Virus record (IMG/VR): IMGVR_UViG_3300037434_000044
Location: 1 to 28,276 of that record
Length of the DNA stretch: 28,276 nt
Reading direction: 5' to 3' (one strand)
From: a virus
Positions 2,828-22,418 of the stretch are shown in pieces. Position 1 is the first letter of the stretch, and each line of letters starts with the position of its first letter. Under the pieces are notes generated by a model. The model was not told where the DNA came from, ran no database searches, and worked only from the letters and a program-made list of their open reading frames with translations. A program made the translations under genes and the position numbers.

Positions 2828-2843
2828 ATGGAATCGATTCCAT
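2828..2843. repeat. 16-base perfect palindrome overlapping the capsid start codon
   Basis: ATGGAATCGATTCCAT is its own reverse complement. Its last two bases are the first two of the ATG of the capsid gene. In RNA it can fold as a 6-base-pair stem (AUGGAA/UUCCAU) with a UCGA loop that would cover the start codon and part of the GGAUGG ribosome site. It may also be a protein-binding site or chance. Confidence 0.6.
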
Positions 2844-3792
2844 GTCAGCAGTTACAATCAATAACCTTCAGGCGCAAGTACCAAACAGCGCGAACCAGCT
2901 CTTGCTCCTCACCGAGCGTCCAGATCTGATCTTCAACCTGTTTGCTACTCAAGACGAACACCCTGAAGGTGGCGGCGATATTCATACTTATCGTCACTAT
3001 CAACGCTTACCGTTGAACCTTACACCGCTACCACAAAACGGTCAGAACCCAGCTCCAATCCAAAGCCAGGTCAACGACTTTAACGCACAGCTTCAGCAGT
3101 ACGGCGCTTATACACTCATCACAACGTTTGTAAGCTCTATCTCTCAAGAAGACGTCGTTACTAAGTATTTTGACCTTTATGCTCAGTGGACATCTGAGAT
3201 GTGCGATCAGCTCCTTAAAAACGTGCTTATTGCCTCTACTTCAACTTACTACTGCCAGTATGGCGTATCACAAGATGACCCGACTGAAATCACTTCACGT
3301 GATATTCAGGAAGTTACAGCTCGTCTACGTTCAAACTCAGCGATCCCAATCATGAATGGTAAGATCGGCGAACTACGAATCGGTTCTTCACCTGTTCGTA
3401 ACTGCTACGCTCTTCTTTGCCATACAGACCTTGAACCTCAGTTCAACCAGATCGGCAACTTCACATACACTTACAACTACCCTAACTACGACGGGGTTCT
3501 TGAAAGTGAATATGGAGCAGTCTTAAACGCTCGTGCCTTCACTAGCCAACTTGGTTCTTACATTGATAACGCTTCAGCCCTTGGCGAGCGTGTCTATCTA
3601 AGTCCTATGGTGTCTATGGAGTCGTTCGCTCATATCAAAATGAACGGACAAATGGCGCAGTACATTTATACCCCAGCTGGCTCAGGTCAAGATTATCTCC
3701 GACGCACACAAGCAGTCGGCGCGATCTTTACTCAAGCTCAAACCATCCTCAACCAGTTATGGGTTGATACAATGCGTTGCACGCTGAATTAG
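2842..3792 (+). CDS. Major capsid protein, N4-gp56 family
   Basis: A 316-residue protein with the pattern typical of the N4 gp56 major capsid family: a strand carrying THTYR-like residues, here DIHTYRHYQRLPLNLTPLP, then a QLQQYGAYTLITTFV strand, and a helix leading into QWTSEMCDQLLKNVLI, where the family has a conserved Q..d..d..l...l pattern. These proteins have the HK97 fold and form the icosahedral shell. Placement directly after a scaffold-like gene agrees. The ATG at 2842 has only a distant GGATGG ribosome site and lies inside a palindrome, unusual for an abundantly made protein. The stop lies 8 bases before the likely start of the next gene. Confidence 0.85.
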   Translation: MSAVTINNLQAQVPNSANQLLLLTERPDLIFNLFATQDEHPEGGGDIHTYRHYQRLPLNLTPLPQNGQNPAPIQSQVNDFNAQLQQYGAYTLITTFVSSISQEDVVTKYFDLYAQWTSEMCDQLLKNVLIASTSTYYCQYGVSQDDPTEITSRDIQEVTARLRSNSAIPIMNGKIGELRIGSSPVRNCYALLCHTDLEPQFNQIGNFTYTYNYPNYDGVLESEYGAVLNARAFTSQLGSYIDNASALGERVYLSPMVSMESFAHIKMNGQMAQYIYTPAGSGQDYLRRTQAVGAIFTQAQTILNQLWVDTMRCTLN

Positions 3793-7220: not shown

Positions 7221-7379
7221 ATGCCTCTCAAAAAAGGTAAGTCAAAGCAAACTTTGCAATCTAACATCCGTAAAGAAGTAAAAGCTGGCGAGCCAGTTAA
7301 GCGCGCTGTGGCAATTGCCTATTCAGAACAAAGACGATCAGGACTGCGTAAAGCTGGCGTACGTAGAGCGCGAGGATAA
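7221..7379 (+). CDS. Small basic conserved phage protein (MPLKKGKS type), 52 aa
   Basis: A 52-residue gene with a strong AGGAG ribosome site 5 bases before ATG. The sequence begins MPLKKGKSKQTLQSNIRKEV and continues with a KRAVAIAYSEQRRS helix. I recognise this as a very common short phage protein type (starting MPLKKGKS, with a conserved AIAY motif), found in many environmental podoviruses and siphoviruses; no function is known to me. The C-terminus is Arg-rich. Its stop overlaps the next start (TAATG), so it is coupled to the nozzle gene. A nucleic-acid-binding virion component is possible, unproven. Confidence 0.8.
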   Translation: MPLKKGKSKQTLQSNIRKEVKAGEPVKRAVAIAYSEQRRSGLRKAGVRRARG

Positions 7380-9991
7380 TGACACCTTACACCCCCTTTG
7401 TTGTAACCAATTTCTCCGATGGAATTAGAACCGATACCGAATCGTTTCTGATCCCCGATGACGCGACACCTCAAATGTTGAACATGACGCATTTTAGAGG
7501 GCGTATCGTTGAAAAGGGAGGCAACTCGCTTCTTTGCAACCCGTCTAATATAGGCGAGTATTTCAGAGGCAGATTAGGAGTTCGCAACCCAACGGGTACT
7601 ACAACAAACGTTGCGGGTCAGGCAGTCATACCAGCAGGTACACTTATCCAAGCAGGCCCTTTAGATCCAGGCACTGTTAGGATTACCGTTGGATCTTTAA
7701 CGGTCATTGATAACGCTATTGACGGCACTTTTGAAGTGTATACTGGCGGCCCAGCTACTGTTACAGGCCAGATCAACTATTCTACGGGTATAATTTCCAC
7801 GGCAGTAACAGGCTTTGGAGCATATGGCGTTAGTACAAATAGCTGGTCAGCTCTTGTTATCCTTACTCCAAGCTCAATATCTCCTGTTATGGGTGCGGAT
7901 AATATTGACGTAACAGGAAGCACATCAGAAAACATGATGGCCTTTGATACGGTTAAGCCTTACATATTCAACGTTAGCGTCGATCAGTTTCAGATAGCCG
8001 ATAAGTACGACTCAACATCAGCTGATAGGCCAGTAGTTACATTTAGCGGTTCCGATAGCGACTTCTTTTGGTGCTTAAACTATGCCGATACATTTTGGGT
8101 AACAAATAACACGCCAGGCTTTCAAGCCCTTTACCCAATCAATGTGGTGGTTGGAGCTACGACCACGATCACCTTTCCTGCTTCAACTACCTTTGCGGTT
8201 AACGATTGGGTTTTCCTATGGGATCTAGGCAATATAACGATCACTCAAGCTAGTGACATTATCCAAGCTTATGGCCAAGTAACGGCTGTCTCTACCACTA
8301 CTTTTGCTAATGACACCATCACAGTTAACATTGCTACGAGTTATACCGATGGTGCATCGACTTTCTCAGGTGGTGGAACGGTTCAAGCGATCAATAGGCA
8401 GCTGAATACTAGCGGAGATGGAATCAAATACTATTCCGTTTCAGGATGGCATAACTTTGCTCCACCTCTAACGGGCGTTTACAATACTCCTAACGGTGGT
8501 GGTGGTCAGGCAACCTATCTTTTTGGAGCGCGTTTTATCGTGTCCTACAAGGGATATCTGCTCTTTTTCAATACCGTTGAGGGTAAAACACTAGCTTCCG
8601 CTCAGCACTATCAGAACAGAATGAGACGCAGCGCAGCAGGTACGCCTTATTACAGCCAGCCGCTTCCTTCTACTCAAGGCACTAACGCTAATTCGTTCAG
8701 TCAGTTTCCAGGATTTGGCGGTTTTTATACCTCACCTGTTAATCAAGACATGGTAAGCGCGCGTTTTTGCCGTGATGAGCTGATTGTATCGCACGAAACG
8801 CACGACTTAAGACTAGACTTTACAGGAAACATCGCTCTTTTGTTCACATGGGCGAGGGTTAACGATGAGTTTGGCGCAGAGTCTACGTTCAGCATGATCA
8901 ACGCCGACACTAAAGCAGTTAAGATCTCTCAGGATGGATTCACCGAATCTCAGGGTATCGACACTGTTAAGATGGATATGAAGGTTCCAGACCTAGTCTA
9001 TCGCTTGTCTAATACGGACGATGGCAAGAAGCGCGTTCATGGATACCGTAACTTTGTCTCTCAGCTATTTAAATGGACTGCGGTTATCCCTCAAGGCTAC
9101 CCTTCCTATCTCAAATTTCCTAATGTGGAAGTGGTCTACAACTACGCATTAAAGAGCTGGTCACTGAATAAGACGTATAACACTGTTTACAACAGTTTTA
9201 AGCTTTTCTACGACAATACATGGTCTAACGCTAAGCGCACATGGGCAGCGTCGCCTATGCCATGGAATACGCTTCAGTCTCGTAACGGTGAACAGATTTC
9301 TGTAGTAGGCAATTCCCAAGGCTTCTTTCACAAGACGGAAGAAACCCAGATCACATCACAGGCTTACAATGATCGCGGTTACAGAATAACCGATATTACG
9401 AGTTTCTTTCTTACCGTTCCCAACCATAGCTTTAAGAACGGCGATTACGTCTATATGACACTTATGAAGGCTCCTAACGCAGCTTTCAATAATGCAGTTT
9501 ATCAAGTTCAGTTTGCTACAGTTAACGGCTTCAATTTGGTCAATCAGGCTGGAAACGTCATTCAGTTTACCAACTCATCGGCCACCTCTCCACCATCTGG
9601 CTTTCTAGCTGTAGTGGACAATATAGAGTATTGGACTAAGAAGTTTTATGTCGGCGGTAACGCAGGACTTCAAACTCGTCTAGGTTATGTGGATGTGTTC
9701 TTTGAGTCGCAAGACGTAGCAAGTGAGATGTCCGTAGACGTCTATTTAGACGATAATAATGAGCCTAGCTTTACAAAAGTCTTCTCCTTAGAGAAACCGG
9801 TTAGTGGCAATTCAGGCAAGATCATCCGACGCGTTTACATTAACGCTATGGCTCAAGCGGTTCAGCTAAGGTTGTACTACTCTAACGCTCAAATGTTCGA
9901 CTACAACACGGGCTACAAGCAGTTTATCCTACACGGCTACACGATCTACATTAAGCAAAGCGGCCGAATCGTCAACTACTCGGCGGTATAG
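7379..9991 (+). CDS. Putative tail nozzle / DNA-stabilisation protein, 870 aa
   Basis: The N-terminus (FSDGIRTDTESFLIPDDATP, then LNMTHFRGRIVEKGG) matches the pattern seen at the start of podovirus tail nozzle and P22 gp10-like proteins: a DG.... strand, a PDDA turn, then an R-G-R strand with a terminal GG. The rest is beta-rich, consistent with the ring-shaped propeller assembly that closes the tail tube and keeps DNA in. A region near residues 680-740 with the VPNHSFKNGDYVYM pattern resembles the FCCH-like repeats in the decoration protein at 3801-4775. Large size, tail-cluster position and immediate abutment with the next gene (stop at 9991, start at 9992) support it. Possible alternative: a large tail-hub protein. 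Confidence 0.65.
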   Translation: MTPYTPFVVTNFSDGIRTDTESFLIPDDATPQMLNMTHFRGRIVEKGGNSLLCNPSNIGEYFRGRLGVRNPTGTTTNVAGQAVIPAGTLIQAGPLDPGTVRITVGSLTVIDNAIDGTFEVYTGGPATVTGQINYSTGIISTAVTGFGAYGVSTNSWSALVILTPSSISPVMGADNIDVTGSTSENMMAFDTVKPYIFNVSVDQFQIADKYDSTSADRPVVTFSGSDSDFFWCLNYADTFWVTNNTPGFQALYPINVVVGATTTITFPASTTFAVNDWVFLWDLGNITITQASDIIQAYGQVTAVSTTTFANDTITVNIATSYTDGASTFSGGGTVQAINRQLNTSGDGIKYYSVSGWHNFAPPLTGVYNTPNGGGGQATYLFGARFIVSYKGYLLFFNTVEGKTLASAQHYQNRMRRSAAGTPYYSQPLPSTQGTNANSFSQFPGFGGFYTSPVNQDMVSARFCRDELIVSHETHDLRLDFTGNIALLFTWARVNDEFGAESTFSMINADTKAVKISQDGFTESQGIDTVKMDMKVPDLVYRLSNTDDGKKRVHGYRNFVSQLFKWTAVIPQGYPSYLKFPNVEVVYNYALKSWSLNKTYNTVYNSFKLFYDNTWSNAKRTWAASPMPWNTLQSRNGEQISVVGNSQGFFHKTEETQITSQAYNDRGYRITDITSFFLTVPNHSFKNGDYVYMTLMKAPNAAFNNAVYQVQFATVNGFNLVNQAGNVIQFTNSSATSPPSGFLAVVDNIEYWTKKFYVGGNAGLQTRLGYVDVFFESQDVASEMSVDVYLDDNNEPSFTKVFSLEKPVSGNSGKIIRRVYINAMAQAVQLRLYYSNAQMFDYNTGYKQFILHGYTIYIKQSGRIVNYSAV

Positions 9992-11023: not shown

Positions 11024-12129
11024 TGAGTTTCTTTACTACAGTACCCGCTAAAACAAATCCTATCGGCGATTCATTCTTAGGTGGATTTAATGAAGGCATC
11101 GAATCAGTCTCTAGAGAGCGTGATCTAGCCTCCGCTACTAAGCGCCAGCACTATTTGCAAGAAGAGCTCTACAAAGAAGACTATCAGAAAGCAAAGCCTT
11201 CGCTAGATGCCATCATCAATAACGAAGCATGGTCACCCTCTCAGAAGCAAATAGAGATCGAGCGTTCGGCTGAAATCCCTCTTTCGGTGAAAGACAGGGC
11301 TACTAAGGCTTATAATAATCAGGTCGCTGAGCAGCAAAAGGCAGTTACTCAAAAAACTGTTCAAGCTTTTAATAAAGAATCGACTGAATTTGTAGCGAAT
11401 GCTCTTGGAATTATCACAGATCTAAAAGGCGACACTATTCCGACGCCAGGACTTACCAACCTACGCGATCTTGACGAAGAAGGATTGATAAAATTTAGCA
11501 CACTTTCCGATCTATACCGAAACAATTTGCTTCAGGGTGATTCTCAGGCGACAGCATGGGCAAGAGCTAAACAGGATTTTGACAAGAATAAATCTGCACT
11601 TATGGCCGAAGCCCAAGAAGAAGCAAAGCTTTCTAACGATCTCAAGATGCAAGAGATCAGAGACTATGAAGCAGCGGATAAAGCGGATAAAGTTAAGCTG
11701 ATCATGGACAACCCTAACTTTAGCGATCGCCAAAAGATCATAGCTCTCAAGGGCGAGGGTATTGAAGCTAAAGAAGCATTGAACATCATTAAGAAAAATG
11801 ATCAAGCGCAACAGTCTTTAGCGAAGATAGAAAACGAAACAAAAGCTCTTTCCTTACGCAAAGCCTCTCAGAATGCTTATAAACATCTGATCGATTATCG
11901 CGGCAATGTCCCACGCAAAGCTTTAGAGTACGCTTCAAGAAACGCGGATGATCTTCTATCACCAAAGTCATTAGCTAAGCTCAAAGATCTAGGTGTAAAC
12001 GATGAAGTTCTTCGCCGCATGAAAGGCGAGAAGCGTAAAGCGACTCAAGAAGAATTGGGTGAGGCTTATCAAAATGCCGATGAAAAATCCATTGTGAAAT
12101 GGTTAAAAGATAACGAACTGGAAGAATAA
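11023..12129 (+). CDS. Putative ejection protein, coiled-coil rich, 368 aa
   Basis: Almost wholly charged and helical, dominated by Lys, Glu, Ala and Asp with long heptad-like stretches (AEAQEEAKLSNDLKMQEIRD, EIRDYEAADKADKVKLIMDN). The first 40 residues contain FLGGFNEGIESVSRERD, a short amphipathic head common in internal virion proteins. It lies between the small Ala/Gly-rich protein and the large polyprotein-like gene, with one-base TAATG overlaps on both sides, so all three are likely made together. Most likely an internal virion protein released with DNA; a second scaffold is unlikely, since one precedes the capsid gene. Confidence 0.55.
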   Translation: MSFFTTVPAKTNPIGDSFLGGFNEGIESVSRERDLASATKRQHYLQEELYKEDYQKAKPSLDAIINNEAWSPSQKQIEIERSAEIPLSVKDRATKAYNNQVAEQQKAVTQKTVQAFNKESTEFVANALGIITDLKGDTIPTPGLTNLRDLDEEGLIKFSTLSDLYRNNLLQGDSQATAWARAKQDFDKNKSALMAEAQEEAKLSNDLKMQEIRDYEAADKADKVKLIMDNPNFSDRQKIIALKGEGIEAKEALNIIKKNDQAQQSLAKIENETKALSLRKASQNAYKHLIDYRGNVPRKALEYASRNADDLLSPKSLAKLKDLGVNDEVLRRMKGEKRKATQEELGEAYQNADEKSIVKWLKDNELEE

Positions 12130-15100
12130 TGGCCCTCACACCCGAAGAACTCATTCTAATCCAACGCGGACGCAATAGAGGGGCTGGCACTAGCTTTGCT
12201 CGCGGTTTACGCGGTTCATCAGCTGGTATCCTTACAGGTCAAGGCTTGTCTAAGGAAGAACGCCAAACAGGCGCCGCTCAACATGGTGAGAGCTTTACGA
12301 ATGATACGATTGAGGGTTTCGGTCAGTTACTAGGCGATCTTCCTGCTATGGCCGCTGGTGGTACTGCGGGTACTGCGGCAGGTGGAGCATTAGGATCAGT
12401 AGCTGGGCCAGGTGGAGCAGCGGTAGGCGCAGCCCTTGGCGGTGGTGCTGGTGCTTTTGCAGCTCCAGAAGTTATCAAAGCCATGTATGAAGAATACCAA
12501 AATGCTCGTAATGACCTTGGAGATATATCCTTTATGGATTACCTCAAGGCTGTAGCATCTAGAACAGGCAAAGCAGCTGGTAAAGGTGCTATCTTTGGTG
12601 GAGTTGCTAAGGCACTCATTCCATTTTTGCATGGCACTGCGGCTCAAGCAGTGCTAAATAAGCTTCCTAAAGGCGCTGCTATTGCAGGGTCTCATGCTGT
12701 AGAAGCTATCACAGAAGCTGGCATTCTAGGCGCTCTAGACACTGCTTTCGATGATGCGGTTCCACTAGAAGCTTTTCGCGATAACCTAGTCATGGTACTA
12801 GGCGCAAAGATCAGTATGGGGCTAGCTGCTACTCTTAAGAAGTCTATGCAGAAGCACCCAGGCGCTAAAGAGAAGATCGCCAAGCAGCTATTGCTTGAGT
12901 ACAAACCATCTCTACGCGAGAGAACAGAGAAAGCCCAAGCAGAAGCCAAGCCAGAAGAATCGGGCAAGTCTATGGTTCTTCCTCAAGAGCATGAATTAAC
13001 GGGGGAGTCTCAACCCTTATTAGAACATAAAGAGGGGGGTAAAGCTGGTTATACCGAAACGCCTATCACTCCTGAGCAAGAAGCTAAGGCCGCCGCCATC
13101 TCACGCAATCAAGCAGAAGGCATAGCTGAGAAGCCTGTAACCAAAGAGCAGCGCGCGCTAAGAGAAGCCAATACAAAAGAAGCTAAAGAAGTTCGCGAAG
13201 CTAAAGAGCACAAGGCTTTCGAGAAAGAGCAAGCCATCAAAGACGAAGCTAAGAAACGTAAAGAATCAGAAGCTAACGTCAAAGAGAAACCTCCTGAGAA
13301 AAAGAAGCTTAACGAGCGAGAAGCTGCTGAAGTAGAAGCCAACCCAGCGATCAAGCTCCTCAAGGACAAGATCAGCGAAGCCGAAGACAATATTGAATCG
13401 CATCGTAAAGCTCTTAAGAAAGATCCCACTAGCGACATAGAGCACGCACGCCTTGAAAAAGAGAAGGCAAAGCTAGCCGATCTCAAAGAGCGCCTCAACT
13501 CCATATCCAACAAGCTTTCTCAGCAGTACCGCAAGAAAGAGTCAACTCAGTACAACAACGAAGCGATTGTTGAAAAGATAGCTCGCGCCTTCAAGATTCC
13601 TATCCGTTCAGGAAAGATTAGCCATCAGAATATCCATGGTATTTATAAGCCCCATGAACGCGTTATCAGGCTACAAAGTCCAGGTGATTATGTTACGGCG
13701 TCTCACGAGATTGGTCATGACCTAGAGCGCAACCTATTCCCTAACGGCGACTATTCATCTATCGAGAAGTTCCGAGGCGAGCTAGAACCTATCGCTACCC
13801 AACCTTTGCCAGGTCAAGACACAATTAGTGAAGGCTTTGCTGAGTTTGTAGCGGCATATACTACCGATCCGAGAGAAGCACGCAGAGTAGCTCCTAAGTT
13901 CTTTGATCATTTTGAAGAGACTTTGAAAGCAAAAAACCCTCATGCACTAGAGATCCTACGTCGAGTGCAAGAGGACGCCCAATCAGTTGCTAACCAGAGT
14001 CCGCTTGATTATGTTGAGTCTAGGAATGGCTATAGCGATTCCAATTCCAAATGGGCTCAATTAAAGCGATATTCTGGAAAACTTTACGAGTCATTCAAAG
14101 ATGATCCTCGTAAGTTTCTTCAGTCTAAATGGTCAGGTTTTTACGCTAACTGGGTAGATAGAGCCGCTCCTATCTATGGTTTTAGCCCAGAAGCTTATCG
14201 AGAGCTTCGCAACCATGCAGGCGTTGACGCTAAGGTGATGTCGTTTATCCATGGGCAAGGCGTTACAGACTTCAAGGAGACTAAAAAAACTTCCGAATCA
14301 CTTCAAAAGATCCTCGAACCGATCGGCAAAGACTTTAAGAAGTTCGATGCCTATCTAGTAGCTATGCGAACTCTTGATCTTGCAAAAAGAGATATCATTA
14401 CAGGTGTTACTCCTGAGCAAGCTAAAGCAGCCGTCATTCAAGGCGATAGCACATATCCTCAATTTAAGAAGGTAGCCGAGCAACTTCAACACTATCAAGA
14501 CGCCGTTCTTCAGTATTACCGTGATAGTGGAATGCTTTCTCAAGAATCCTATGCTGCTATTAAGGATAAGAACCCGTTCTATGTTCCCTTGAATAGAGTC
14601 TTTGAAAACACCGTCGATATGTTTTCTCCAGGTTCAGTCCGTCAGCTAACCCATAAGATTCTAGGTAGCGAACGTAAGATCATGAGTCCGCTCGAAAATA
14701 TCTCTAAGAACACTGCTATGATGACGCGCATGGCTAGTCGCAACGATGTGCTTAAGACGTTTATTGCTGATACGGCACATAAGCCAGGAATCGGTTCCAT
14801 ATTAGAGTTTAATGGTATCCAAGAAGCTAAAAGAGAGAACCTGATTAGTCTAGCAGCTGAACGCAGTGGATTAGATCCGGCTCTCTTTGAAACCGTTTCT
14901 CCTGAAATTCTTCAAGCCATGGCCGATCATTCTCGATGGACTAAAGATGGTAACGATATCAAAGTCTTTATCGATGGCAAGGCGCATCTCTATAACGTTG
15001 ATCCATTGATCTATCAAGGTTTAGGAATGCTAGGACGATCAGAAGTGCCTATGGCCGTTCAGATGATGTCTATTCCTACTCAATCCTTGCGCTCGCTTAC

Positions 15101-17663: not shown

Positions 17664-17777
17664 ATGTCAGTCCACGGTTTCTCTAATTCCACGCTCTATG
17701 CAACTAACGTCGATTTTCGCGGCGTAACTCCAGTCGTCGATCAGATGACAGCAGATGGCCAACTTCTTATTGGTTCA
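17664..17777 (+). repeat. N-terminal fibre anchor, copy 1
   Basis: Encodes the same first 38 residues as 19611-19724, but 22 of the 38 codons differ between the copies and every difference is synonymous by my count. This is a protein-level repeat that is strongly diverged at the DNA level. Confidence 0.9.
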
Positions 17778-19607
17778 AGCGTTGCTCCATTTATTCGATC
17801 TGGTTTGCTTACAAGTGTAGGGTCTACGGTTGATATTACCGTGGGTCATGGCACGATCAACCTAGAGACTATCGGCGGCGTTACAACAATCGTTGGCGAT
17901 TCTGGCCAAAGCGTTACAGGTGCAGTTACCCTTTATGCTGATCAAGCGGCTCTAAATTGCGGCTCAAGCGTAACCTTCACGACAGACGGTGCTCAGACAG
18001 CTACTTTCAATGTAACTGACTCAAGCAATAACACCCTTCTGGGCATCAATACAGGCAATCTTTCTCTTACTGGGTCTACGAACACTGGGCTGGGAGCGGG
18101 GGTTTTAACCGCACTCACGAACGGGATATCCAATTGCAGTTTCGGTCAAGGATCTTCAACCTCCATAACATCAGGGACTTATAATAGTTGTTTTGGAACC
18201 CTAGGTTTGAGCAGTCTTTCAGGTTCCTCATACTGTTCAGCTTTTGGAGCACAAGCCCTAGCCAATTTGTCCTCGGGAAACTATACGACTGGCCTTGGAT
18301 ACAATGCTGGGATCTATCTAAACGGTGCGGAATCAAGCTCAATTTGTATCAACAGCTACGGTGATACAGGGGTTAGTAATCGCCTTAAAATTGGGCAGGC
18401 TACAGGGACTGGCACTGGAGAATTATCGACATCCTTTATTTCTGGCATCAATGGCAATACAGCCTTAACTACCCCTCTCATGGTGGTTATCAATAGTTCT
18501 GATCAGCTTGGAACAATGCCACTTCCAACTAGTGGAGTTACATCACTAGTGGGTGATTCTGGAACGACTGTAGATGGTGCAGTAACCCTTACCACAGGCA
18601 ACTCTACACGAAACTGCGGTAGTACAGTTAAATTTGTCTCAGGGACTACGACAGTTACTCTAGATGTGATGGACTCAAGTAATAACTTGTTTTTGGGTAC
18701 CAACGCTGGAAATGCTGCCGATACAGGCCAAGACAATACTGCGGTAGGCTGGGGGGCGATGAGCTCAAATTCATCCTCAGCATATTGCGTAGCCATTGGA
18801 TATGGTGCTCTGGGTACATCCTCAGCGTCCTTGAACCACGTAGCGGTAGGCCTAGGGGCACTTGGTGCTGCACAAGGTTCTTCAGACTGCACAGCTCTAG
18901 GATTTGGCGCCTTAAATCAATCTGCGCACGGCATCCAAAACACTGCGGTAGGCAGCAATTGTTTGAATGTTCTTAACAATTCTTTCAATGCTAATGGCAA
19001 CGTGGGTATGGGGTATCAATGTTTTTCTTCAATGACAGGTGGCTCTCGCAACGTAGGGGCAGGTACTACCACAGGTAGTGCTTATACAAGTACTGAGAGT
19101 GACAACATCCTCATCAATAGTGCTGGGGTGGTCTCAGAGTCTAACACCCTAAGAATTGGCCATGCCACAGGCACAGGCAACTATCAATTAAACAAAGCCT
19201 ATATCCAAGGTATTGCAGGAGCTACCCTCTCAGCAGGTTCTCCTACTCCTTACCTAACCCTTACAGATACATCAGATGGTCAAATTGTTTGTCCTACGCC
19301 AGTTCAAGCTAGTGCAGCGTCTACTACCTATGGTTCCCTATCTGTAGGTACAGCCCTCCAGAACACTGCCAACTACCCTATCCTTGTGCATGTGCAGATG
19401 GTTATCTCTGCTGCGATTACAGGTGTGGTTAGTGTGGGTGTAGGTTCTACTAACAGCCCAACAGCTAGAGCTATCACTCCAACTCTTTCAGGTGCTTCAA
19501 GTCAATACTTTAGCTTTGTAGTCCCTGCTAAGTTTTATGCACAGATAACAACTTCTGGAACAGTAACAGTCACTTCTACAACTACATTTGCATCACAAAT
19601 AGGCTAA
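17664..19607 (+). CDS. Tail fibre / adhesin 1, 647 aa, with YadA-head-like repeats
   Basis: Residues 1-38 form an N-terminal anchor identical to that of the next gene, including the MTADGQLLIGS motif known from phage and giant-virus fibre-like proteins. Two modules follow, each opening with GDSG (about 78-81 and 297) and N-C-G-S strands, then tandem short repeats of the form N-x-x-x-G-x-x-A-L like trimeric autotransporter head repeats, and closing with an ININSxG-type and RIG..TGT strand. The last 100 residues, with GSLSVGTALQNTANYPILVH, match the C-terminal domain of many phage fibres. No peptidase S74 chaperone end is present. Trimeric fibre that binds the host is the likely role. ATG 17664 follows an ACAGGTAAC ribosome site. 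Confidence 0.8.
   Translation: MSVHGFSNSTLYATNVDFRGVTPVVDQMTADGQLLIGSSVAPFIRSGLLTSVGSTVDITVGHGTINLETIGGVTTIVGDSGQSVTGAVTLYADQAALNCGSSVTFTTDGAQTATFNVTDSSNNTLLGINTGNLSLTGSTNTGLGAGVLTALTNGISNCSFGQGSSTSITSGTYNSCFGTLGLSSLSGSSYCSAFGAQALANLSSGNYTTGLGYNAGIYLNGAESSSICINSYGDTGVSNRLKIGQATGTGTGELSTSFISGINGNTALTTPLMVVINSSDQLGTMPLPTSGVTSLVGDSGTTVDGAVTLTTGNSTRNCGSTVKFVSGTTTVTLDVMDSSNNLFLGTNAGNAADTGQDNTAVGWGAMSSNSSSAYCVAIGYGALGTSSASLNHVAVGLGALGAAQGSSDCTALGFGALNQSAHGIQNTAVGSNCLNVLNNSFNANGNVGMGYQCFSSMTGGSRNVGAGTTTGSAYTSTESDNILINSAGVVSESNTLRIGHATGTGNYQLNKAYIQGIAGATLSAGSPTPYLTLTDTSDGQIVCPTPVQASAASTTYGSLSVGTALQNTANYPILVHVQMVISAAITGVVSVGVGSTNSPTARAITPTLSGASSQYFSFVVPAKFYAQITTSGTVTVTSTTTFASQIG
18080..19075 (+). repeat. 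Tandem YadA-head-like repeats in fibre 1 (two blocks)
   Basis: Protein-level repeats of about 14-19 residues with pattern small-C/N-x-A/S-x-G-x-x-A/S-L, in blocks near 18080-18310 and 18730-19075, separated by a hinge (GDSG near 18553). Examples are CSAFGAQALANL, CVAIGYGALGTS and CTALGFGALNQS. The extent is approximate. Confidence 0.7.
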
Positions 19608-19610
19608 CCT

Positions 19611-19724
19611 ATGTCAGTCCACGGTTTTTCCAACTCTACGCTTTATGCTACCAACGTGGATTTCCGCGGTGTTACACCCGTTGTCGATCAAATGACGGCC
19701 GATGGCCAGCTTCTAATCGGGTCG
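19611..19724 (+). repeat. N-terminal fibre anchor, copy 2
   Basis: Encodes the same 38 residues as 17664-17777 with 22 synonymous codon differences and no amino-acid change. The proteins diverge beyond residue 38 (for example the SSVAPFIRSGLLTS versus SATAPFIRSGFLTS stretch). Confidence 0.9.
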
Positions 19725-22418
19725 GCAACGGCCCCTTTTATTAGGTCTGGGTTCCTTACAAGCGTTAACAATACTATTTTGTTTAATCTTGGTAACGGGA
19801 CGATCGACCTAGCTGCTAGTGGTGGCACTATCATCAATGGTGACACAGGGGTTCCAGTCTATGGCCCTAACATCTATGTCTATGCGGATCATGGCGACAA
19901 CTACTGTGGTAGCACAGTCCTCTTTGAGGGTATATCAGGCAATACAGATCTTCAGCTTCAGCTTTCTGATACCAATGGAAACACCTGCCTAGGCCAACAA
20001 AGTGGCAATGCTAGTAATCTCCTTACAGGGATACAAAACACCCTTGTGGGCACACAATGTGGATACTCACTGGTGGGTGGTTCTGGCACAGTAGCAGTTG
20101 GAAATCAAGCTCTACGCTCAAGTGTCAATGATAGTTATTCAACAGCAATTGGCACCTCAGCTTTATATAGTCTTAATGGCTCTATAGGCTTAACAGCTTG
20201 TGGTTACACTGCGCTAAGTGGAACTGTAAGCGATACAGGCTGCTCAGCTTTTGGGTATCAATCACTCGCTCAGCTCAATGGTGGGGGTAGCGCTAATAAC
20301 TGCTCAGCATTTGGTTACAACAGCTTATTTGCTTCTTTTACAGACAGCGACAATAGTTGTTTTGGTTTTAACACGCTCACAAATACCCAAGGGGGCAGTT
20401 TCAATTGTGCTTTTGGTTCACAGAGTATGCAAGGCACCTCGCCAAGCCATGCCACACGAAATTCTGCATATGGATACCAAAGCCTTTTTACATCAGGTAC
20501 TAACTGTAATTCAAACGTAGCTGTAGGGGCACAAAGCCTTTATAGCACAGCTGGCGATAGCTATTGTGTAGCAATTGGTGACGGAGCTTTACAGAATCTT
20601 AATGGTGTTAGTGGTATAACTGCTGTAGGATGTCAAGCTCTCTTTAGTAGTGTTCAGGACGCCCAGAATACTGCTCTAGGCTTTCAAGCTATGTACTCAA
20701 CTAACTCTGGGGGTATGGGAGGCAATGCTAACGTAGCGACAGGCTATCAGGTGATGTATTCCAATATCTCTGGGTCACAGTGCTTAGCTTCAGGTTTTCA
20801 GGCTCTGTTTAGTGCGACTACACCTAACTCTACAGTGGCAGAAGGCTACCAAGCCATGTATCAAAGCTTGACCTCTGTAGGCTGCACAGCAACAGGATTT
20901 CAAGCTCTCTATAGCTCACAAAATGACCAATACCATTGTGCTTATGGTGACAGCGCTCTCTACTCAATAAATGGCTCTAACAACTGCTCAGCTTTTGGTA
21001 CTGATTGCTTTGGCTCGCTAGTTACAGGGCAGAACTCATCAGGGCTGGGAGCATTTGTTTTTTCAAATATAACTACAGGGGAGGGCAACCTAGGGCTTGG
21101 CTATAGTGCTGGCTCAAGCTGCACTTCCAGCGACTCTTTCAACGTCTGCATAGCCTCCAATGGTCTTTCAGGGGACAATGGGGTTATCAGAATTGGTGAC
21201 ATTACAGGTTCTCCAGCTCAGAACCAGTTTCAAGCTGCATATTTCTGTGGTATTAATCAATTCACTCAAGACCCTCTATTAGCAGGGCCTCAAGTTGTTA
21301 CGATCAGCACATCCAACCAACTTGGAGTGACTAGCCTTCTATCTGGCGCTATCCAGACAATCGTTGGCGATTCTGGAAGTATAACAGGTAACACAGTTCA
21401 AATTTTCGCTAATCAAGCCATTCTAAATGCAGGTAGCACAGTTTCTTTTAGCAATAGTGGCACAACTAGCACGCTAAATTTAAGCGATAACAACCAAAAC
21501 ACCATCATAGGAAATGGCTCTGGAGTGGTTGCCCCTTTATTTGGGAGTGGTAACACTATTCTTGGAAGTGGAAGTTTTAATAATGCTGCCTCAGCTCATC
21601 AAAACGTAGGAGTTGGTGCACAGGTACTTGTAAATTGTGTTTCGGATGGTGGACTAGTCGCCATTGGTTATCAGTCAATGTATGCAGCTAATGGTGTAGG
21701 TCAATCAACAGCTACAGGTTTTTTAAGTCTGCAACAATCTGTTTCTGATAGTGGCAATTCAGCTTTTGGGTACCAATCTTTAACCTTTCTTAATGGAGCT
21801 GGAAGCGCAATTAATAACAGTGCTTTTGGTGTTAATAGTCTTCCCAACCTAGTAACAGGTTCTTTTTGCGTAGGTATAGGAGCCAACAGTGGTGAAGGGT
21901 ACACATCTAGCGAATCTAGCAATATTTGTATCAACAGCTATGGTGTGGTTGGTGAGTCCAATGTTGGAAGGATAGGGGCAGGAACAGGAACTGCCAACCA
22001 ACAATTAGCAGAGTTCTTCCTAAGTGGGGTGAATGGCAACACTCTAGGTGGCACTCCTCTAATGGTGGTCATAGATAGCTCTACAGACCAACTAGGTGTT
22101 CAGGCTATTCCTACGACTAGCGTTCAAGCGTTGACCCCTGTAACTCATGGAGCTTCTCCTTACACTGTCCTCACAACAGATCAATTTCTATCGTGTGCGA
22201 CTAGCGGTGGTGTGATTACTCTCCTCCTCCCTAACGCTCCAGTGACTGGTCAAGTTTGGACTGTCAAAGATGCCTCTGGTGCAGCAGCTACTAGCAACAT
22301 CACTGTAACCACAGTGGGTGGAGCGGTGACTATCGATGGGGTAACTTCCTATGTGCTCAACGTCAACTATCAATCAATCAGCGTTATCTTTGATGGCGCC
22401 TCATACTCGGTATTTTAG
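19611..22418 (+). CDS. Tail fibre / adhesin 2, 935 aa, with about 20 YadA-head-like repeats
   Basis: Starts 3 bases after the stop of fibre 1, with the same first 38 residues. Module 1 opens with GDTG near residue 77 and carries about 20 tandem short repeats (CSAFGYQSLAQL, CVAIGDGALQNL, CTATGFQALYSS). Module 2 opens with GDSG near 585 and carries a shorter set. Many repeats have Cys in the position where related repeats usually have Thr or Asn. The last 94 residues, with SPYTVLTTDQFLSC, NAPVTGQVWTVKDASG and a terminal YSVF, match the compact C-terminal domain seen in phage and giant-virus adhesins, so the gene appears intact. A trimeric, beta-prism receptor-binding fibre is likely. Confidence 0.8.
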   Translation: MSVHGFSNSTLYATNVDFRGVTPVVDQMTADGQLLIGSATAPFIRSGFLTSVNNTILFNLGNGTIDLAASGGTIINGDTGVPVYGPNIYVYADHGDNYCGSTVLFEGISGNTDLQLQLSDTNGNTCLGQQSGNASNLLTGIQNTLVGTQCGYSLVGGSGTVAVGNQALRSSVNDSYSTAIGTSALYSLNGSIGLTACGYTALSGTVSDTGCSAFGYQSLAQLNGGGSANNCSAFGYNSLFASFTDSDNSCFGFNTLTNTQGGSFNCAFGSQSMQGTSPSHATRNSAYGYQSLFTSGTNCNSNVAVGAQSLYSTAGDSYCVAIGDGALQNLNGVSGITAVGCQALFSSVQDAQNTALGFQAMYSTNSGGMGGNANVATGYQVMYSNISGSQCLASGFQALFSATTPNSTVAEGYQAMYQSLTSVGCTATGFQALYSSQNDQYHCAYGDSALYSINGSNNCSAFGTDCFGSLVTGQNSSGLGAFVFSNITTGEGNLGLGYSAGSSCTSSDSFNVCIASNGLSGDNGVIRIGDITGSPAQNQFQAAYFCGINQFTQDPLLAGPQVVTISTSNQLGVTSLLSGAIQTIVGDSGSITGNTVQIFANQAILNAGSTVSFSNSGTTSTLNLSDNNQNTIIGNGSGVVAPLFGSGNTILGSGSFNNAASAHQNVGVGAQVLVNCVSDGGLVAIGYQSMYAANGVGQSTATGFLSLQQSVSDSGNSAFGYQSLTFLNGAGSAINNSAFGVNSLPNLVTGSFCVGIGANSGEGYTSSESSNICINSYGVVGESNVGRIGAGTGTANQQLAEFFLSGVNGNTLGGTPLMVVIDSSTDQLGVQAIPTTSVQALTPVTHGASPYTVLTTDQFLSCATSGGVITLLLPNAPVTGQVWTVKDASGAAATSNITVTTVGGAVTIDGVTSYVLNVNYQSISVIFDGASYSVF
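20035..21120 (+). repeat. Tandem YadA-head-like repeat block in fibre 2
   Basis: About twenty protein-level repeats of roughly 14-20 residues following the pattern C/N-x-A-x-G-x-x-A/S-L/M-Y/F-S. They are diverged at the DNA level, so this is an old expansion and not a recent slippage array. A shorter block follows at about 21555-21900. Confidence 0.75.

Follow-up and report, generated by a model that had tools for sequence, protein, structure and literature searches.

The coat-protein operator of phages MS2 and R17 is a hairpin on the replicase start, and its hallmark is the specific binding of a protein. The T4 gene soc codes for a capsid protein. Translation-start hairpins are described for the T4 genes e, soc, 49 and I-TevI in section 29 of PMC3014915; the same section deals with the split ribosome sites of T4 genes 38 and 25, in which a hairpin lies between the Shine-Dalgarno (SD) sequence and the AUG and helps initiation. 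Tandem pseudoknots are represented by the STAXI motif, which, in the part of PMC2864571 that treats it, is found in two or three copies near DNA-handling genes.

The locus compared here with these systems is the start of the major capsid gene in a 28,276-nt IMG/VR virus sequence (the window, by which we mean the whole stretch analysed). The following features of the window are concerned:

2038–2814, + strand: putative scaffold gene, 258 aa, with its stop codon at 2812–2814, 27 nt upstream of the capsid ATG
2814–2818 with 2851–2855, + strand: outer stem (predicted), GUGAC with GUUAC, one G-U pair, enclosing the inner hairpin
2823–2849, + strand: inner RNA hairpin (predicted), 11 pairs, one of them G-U (2827–2845), with a bulged G2844
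2828–2843, + strand: perfect 16-nt palindrome, as RNA a stem AUGGAA/UUCCAU of 6 pairs with a UCGA loop
2830–2833, + strand: weak SD candidate GGAA in the 5′ arm, 8 nt before the ATG, read from the sequence
2842–3792, + strand: major capsid protein gene, 316 aa, PHROG 1357 major head protein (E 5e-25)

The head genes are arranged in the order portal (cut; Pfam P22_portal), two small genes, the 258-aa gene and the capsid gene, which is uninterrupted. The nearest annotated relative of the capsid protein belongs to phage vB_Pun_Y3 (25% identity) and is annotated as a member of the N4-gp56 family. No PHROG or Pfam match was obtained for the 258-aa product, which is called a putative scaffold by its position only. 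Downstream of the capsid gene, gene 3801–4775 matches both Pfam E1_FCCH (PF16190, E 2e-17), a domain whose name derives from ubiquitin-activating enzymes, and PHROG 584, major tail protein. Further along, two adjacent long genes, 17664–19607 and 19611–22418, begin with an identical stretch of 38 residues (MSVHGFSNSTLYATNVDFRGVTPVVDQMTADGQLLIGS), as though their front part had arisen by duplication.

The capsid start is supported by the absence of any ATG, GTG or TTG between an in-frame TAG at 2821 and the ATG at 2842–2844 and by alignment of the capsid N-terminus with those of relatives. A second in-frame start, which the earlier note had suggested looking for, was not found: no ATG, GTG or TTG occurs before a TTG at 2902. 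The same note had pointed to a perfect 16-base palindrome over the capsid start. The sequence bears this out, the A and T of the ATG being the final two letters of the palindrome, ATGGAATCGATTCCAT. It is the longest palindrome of the window, the next longest being three of 12 nt. Since 0.54 palindromes of at least 16 nt are expected per dinucleotide-shuffled window (83 of 200 shuffles contained at least one), its length alone is unsurprising.

In the predicted folds, the RNA hairpin extends past the palindrome, which had been missed before. GCUGG (2823–2827) pairs with UCAGC (2845–2849), skipping G2844, the bulged third base of the start codon, with A2842 and U2843 both paired. The first base of the outer stem is the last base of the upstream gene's stop codon, and this stop thus lies within the hairpin's reach. 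As there is one G-U pair in each of the two stem extensions, an RNA structure suits them better than a DNA dyad does. The only SD-like stretch seen at normal spacing, GGAA, is mostly paired, and bases −14 to −10 and −3 to −1 are nearly always so. The proposal that the folded form hides the start and part of the (weak) ribosome site is therefore supported by folding predictions, which place the SD candidate and the AUG in a local helix. Predicted energies are −12.4 kcal/mol for 2821–2850, −13.8 kcal/mol for 2814–2855 and −15.3 kcal/mol for the 60-nt leader 2807–2866. Shuffled versions of the latter gave −9.74 kcal/mol (sd 2.37; z −2.35), and 5 out of 200 were as stable. On the + strand of the window, 27-nt folds of equal or greater stability occur at 24 places, the palindrome site being one of them.

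We compared the capsid start with other gene starts, 25 starts in all being chosen by us from the window's ORF list. Opening of a ribosome-sized stretch (−20 to +14) at the capsid start was predicted to cost 16.6 kcal/mol with 35-nt flanks and 15.8 kcal/mol with 50-nt flanks, the highest of the 25 starts in both cases; 5.0% and 13.3%, respectively, of 1127 random sites were at least as closed. By plain folding energy, 18% of random sites match or exceed the capsid start. Opening of −15 to +4 costs 5.9 kcal/mol (rank 13 of 25; 63% of random sites are no cheaper to open), an average value that is due to an alternative outer helix that remains. Of the 24 other gene starts, 20 were less closed than the average random site when 35-nt flanks were used. 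The opening cost at the window's capsid start also lies above that of 120 of 124 capsid starts of the relatives described below. The capsid start is an outlier among gene starts and no extreme one among sites.

Comparison with close relatives had been proposed, to look for a palindrome that is preserved while its bases change. Five IMG/VR contigs with 100% capsid identity, the same five that an exact 20-nt pattern search retrieved, carry 0–4 differences in 1348 positions and none in the hairpin. The palindrome is unchanged in all of them, there are no changed bases to compare, and conservation among contigs so nearly identical tests nothing. Among the matches listed, IMG/VR holds no capsid relative whose identity along the entire protein falls between 36% and 100%, which leaves the window's hairpin without a covariation test. 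A genome_contigs scan gave one match, L170 (CAIPPE010000153.1), whose capsid fragment is 89% like that of locus L050 and is uninformative for the window's hairpin; its contig is binned as Methylococcaceae, a weak hint at the hosts of the capsid clade considered next.

More distant relatives were reached by a portal gene search that led to phages of mostly 30–37% portal identity (among the matches listed) and from there to a large capsid clade. Its loci were collected by pattern-based scans as the best 80 of 349 confirmed (ranked by L050) and the best 80 of at least 568 (ranked by the window). In set 1 (128 loci, L043–L170), an N-terminal motif search yielded 90 capsid starts, of which 71 leaders were kept after removal of those at least 85% alike; 70 have a recognised SD and L060 has none. 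Set 2 (77 loci, L171–L247) yielded 70 starts and 53 kept leaders (below 80% identity to any kept leader), 48 with an SD; L173, L189, L191, L201 and L243, which have none, were omitted from the SD test. Control genes were taken from the same contigs, with starts picked by a script that preferred SD-bearing ATGs, so that some of them are wrong starts.

According to the earlier note, relatives that lack the palindrome and keep the capsid start would refute its significance. Taken literally, this is what we found: none of the 124 distinct distant-relative leaders contains a perfect palindrome of at least 10 nt between −30 and +15. Many of them, however, occlude the SD by hairpins made of other letters, and loss of the palindrome is too narrow a criterion. 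In many relatives the SD forms the 3′ arm of a hairpin, and the 5′ arm varies along with it, as in L177 (TTCCTA/TAGGAA), L182 (TTCCT/AGGAA), L166 (CGCTCC/GGAGCG), L162 (CCCC/GGGG) and L144 (TTAACTC/GAGTTAA); loop lengths differ widely.

Opening of the SD costs 3.89 kcal/mol in set 1 against 2.65 kcal/mol with shuffled upstream sequence (23 of 70 leaders at p ≤ 0.05; Wilcoxon 2.7e-5) and 3.50 against 2.40 kcal/mol in set 2 (14 of 48; p 0.004). Pooled, 37 of 118 leaders, about a third, reach p ≤ 0.05. For control genes the cost is 2.11 kcal/mol against 2.22 in shuffles, with 28 of 359 at p ≤ 0.05. Costs of 5 kcal/mol or more are found for 39 of 118 capsid leaders and 34 of 359 control genes (Fisher 7e-9), and a stricter choice of starts left the direction unchanged, with p ≤ 0.05 for 12 of 39 capsid starts and for 16 of 196 controls. 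When upstream arms were swapped among leaders, permuted arms paired the SD arm as well as a leader's own arm did in 0 of 5000 permutations for set 1 (67 of the 71 leaders) and 1 of 5000 for set 2 (48 of 53). The leaders are related, and they were therefore thinned by gapped identity: at 75%, 100 leaders were left, 28 of them at p ≤ 0.05 (Wilcoxon 4e-5), while the excess was not significant at 65% (29 leaders, 6 at p ≤ 0.05; Wilcoxon 0.51) or at 60% (16 leaders, 5 at p ≤ 0.05; Wilcoxon 0.10). Judged by eye, the SD looks mostly plain and open in a further set of 20 capsid loci that are more distant (21–26% identity); L023 is among the exceptions. SD occlusion thus seems to be a feature of the capsid clade, predicted in about a third of the leaders tested; since the window's lineage is 30–36% identical to this clade, we extend it to the window by analogy.

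An upstream stop codon 23–40 nt before the ATG, the layout of the window, was listed for 23 leaders. Eighteen were tested, and eight reached p ≤ 0.05 (L124, where the upstream ORF has only 103 codons, L144, L155, L162, L166, L177, L182 and L228). By eye, SD-covering stems are also present in L158, L164 and L187 (p 0.07–0.12) and in L189 and L191, which are outside the SD test. Hairpins at p ≤ 0.05 are as frequent in leaders without a nearby upstream stop (26 of 74) as in those with one (11 of 44), so coupling to an upstream gene cannot be the family-wide role.

We propose that the palindrome hairpin is a translation gate on the capsid start that would be opened mainly by ribosomes finishing the upstream gene, a reading to which we assign a probability of about 0.5. 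The hairpin would close the start by pairing both the weak SD and the AU of the AUG, and free initiation by 30S subunits would be poor. Ribosomes on the putative scaffold gene would terminate at the hairpin's foot, melt the lower stems and open the gate, and coat synthesis would thereby be tied to scaffold synthesis. A terminating ribosome, given its footprint, would leave free roughly the stretch 2826–2860, for which the predicted folding energy is −5.0 kcal/mol, compared with −13.8 kcal/mol for 2814–2855. Lowered initiation in vivo, opening by upstream ribosomes and the action of any bound factor are what we infer. Given the hairpins in leaders without a nearby stop, a regulator or simple rate-setting is likewise possible. 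Few virion proteins are needed as much as coat protein, and still the start of its gene seems closed in about a third of those members of this large uncultured phage group that were examined. Should the gate be real, it would offer a simple example of the way in which phages adjust the relative amounts of scaffold and coat and the time at which they are made.

The earlier note had left the choice between translational control, a regulatory-protein site and a local accident. Translational control is favoured over accident by the enrichment of SD-occluding hairpins in relatives' capsid leaders relative to genes of the same contigs, and the hairpin is probably a modest control device. A neutral origin would mean that a chance inverted repeat fell on the capsid start and that 30S or coupled initiation suffices regardless. 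The shuffled-window expectation of 0.54, the 24 places with 27-nt folds no less stable, the 5 of 200 leader shuffles that fold as well and the uninformative close relatives all suit such an accident; that the capsid start is the most closed in a window where 20 of 24 other starts lie on the open side of the random-site mean (35-nt flanks), and that occluding hairpins are enriched at relatives' capsid starts, makes it the less probable explanation, though one with some weight. It is also conceivable, but unlikely, that the hairpin is an RNA operator to which coat protein, scaffold, another factor or a ligand binds (in relatives, to pseudoknots) and so sets capsid translation. T4 genes 32 and 43 are precedents in the portion of PMC3014915 that concerns them, relatives that lack an upstream stop close by have hairpins just as often, and a pseudoknot strand of relatives doubles as an anti-SD; yet no loop or stem sequence common to the window and its relatives was seen, and the window's + strand has no pseudoknot unit with both stems.

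A mechanism of the T4 gene e type, documented in section 29 of PMC3014915, would keep the start closed in long early transcripts, while open transcripts would come from a late promoter located in the 5′ arm. We consider it very unlikely here, as no σ70-like promoter was found on the + strand from 2290 to the capsid ATG; phage-specific promoters may differ. Least probable of all is a DNA-level dyad for a dimeric protein. The DNA palindrome is indeed perfect and free of a spacer, but it occurs once in the window (one match with 3 mismatches, at 14785, lies within a gene), no promoter-like site is nearby, the stem extensions require G-U pairs, and loop lengths vary widely in relatives' hairpins; the regulatory-protein site on DNA that the earlier note had considered thus finds little favour. 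A repeated DNA operator was rejected on account of the single copy. A split ribosome site as in T4 38 and 25 was also rejected, the AUG being inside the stem and no strong SD being seen upstream of the hairpin. An Rfam search of the window at gathering scores returned no match.

Long leaders of the relatives contain repeated H-type pseudoknot units of ~28 nt, such as GACGTATTAAAGGTTCGTCACCTTT (L053). In many relatives tandem arrays precede the capsid gene, for example at the following positions:

L053, 4945–5030: tandem pseudoknot array
L096, 2845–2970: tandem pseudoknot array
L101, 2894–2975: tandem pseudoknot array
L129, 2904–2970: tandem pseudoknot array

Units defined by stem 1 only occur at 3.33 per kb in the 420 nt before the capsid ATG and 0.26 per kb in the rest of the contigs (13-fold), a post hoc figure because the motif was written after inspection of the leaders. 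At least one unit is present in 40 of 71 leaders and at least two in 28. Stem 2, the loop-to-tail pairing, was not used in selection, and in 98 units it is better than in all 5000 permutations. The last unit before the capsid gene was analysed in the 54 of 124 leaders that remained after filtering. Pairing of its tail gives −4.37 with the loop (−2.44 in permutations) and −4.18 with the SD arm (−2.62 in permutations), neither value being equalled in 5000 permutations; in 34 of the 54, the tail pairs the SD arm better than the spacer does. With strict thinning, permutations did as well in 32 (tail-loop) and 119 (tail-SD arm) of 5000 for 11 leaders, and in 153 and 143 for 6 leaders. One tail cannot pair with the loop and the SD arm simultaneously, which implies a switch architecture. 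No credible Rfam family was found for these pseudoknots (8 loci at gathering scores and at E ≤ 10, one leader at E ≤ 5), and the STAXI model gave no match in 8 loci up to E 10. The window's + strand contains two stem-1 matches, both within gene 7379–9991 and without stem 2.

We tentatively suggest, as a possibility weaker than the gate itself, that the capsid leaders in this phage group are translational switches belonging to one family, of which the window's hairpin would be a minimal, sensorless form opened by upstream ribosomes. In long leaders, the switch would consist of tandem H-type pseudoknots with stem 1 GRCG/CGYC and stem 2 formed between loop and tail. The final strand would pair either within the pseudoknot or with the capsid SD, in mutually exclusive folds, and a signal, be it coat protein, scaffold protein or some small molecule, would stabilise the pseudoknot and turn capsid translation on. 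The arrays, which lack an Rfam match in the loci tested, could represent a new class of phage RNA switch.

A separate observation concerns the relatives' capsid genes, several of which carry one or more stop-filled insertions at varied places (L052, L053, L061, L069, L072, L074, L076, L084 and L085). The L061 insertion (12022–12309) has a full-model match to the Rfam group I intron (RF00028) of 40.1 bits, E 9.5e-7, below the curated 50 bits, and L069 scores 17.8 bits. No RF00028 match was found at gathering scores in 8 loci, nor at E ≤ 1 in L052 10900–12250.

In the portion of the literature surveyed, no capsid-start hairpin or pseudoknot array is reported for this phage group. The nearest described kind that we found for the relatives' arrays is STAXI, as presented in the relevant part of PMC2864571: its pseudoknot is likewise repeated two or three times, a likeness that concerns the relatives alone, but it lies near DNA-handling genes, whereas the relatives' arrays precede the capsid gene. 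The MS2/R17 operator resembles the window in having the start codon within a hairpin of a phage mRNA; the gene is different, and no sequence likeness is claimed. In section 29 of PMC3014915, T4 38 and 25 also have a hairpin at the translation start, but there the SD and AUG flank it, while in the window the SD candidate and the AUG are inside the stem. T4 e, soc, 49 and I-TevI, as described there, come closest, being phage genes in which a local helix sequesters the SD and/or AUG. In T4 e, late promoters remove the 5′ arm, and none was seen in the window. Start-occluding hairpins in phage genes are thus a known kind, which the window's feature, with a function that we infer, would join in a gene that differs from the T4 set: that of the major capsid protein, directly behind an upstream gene.
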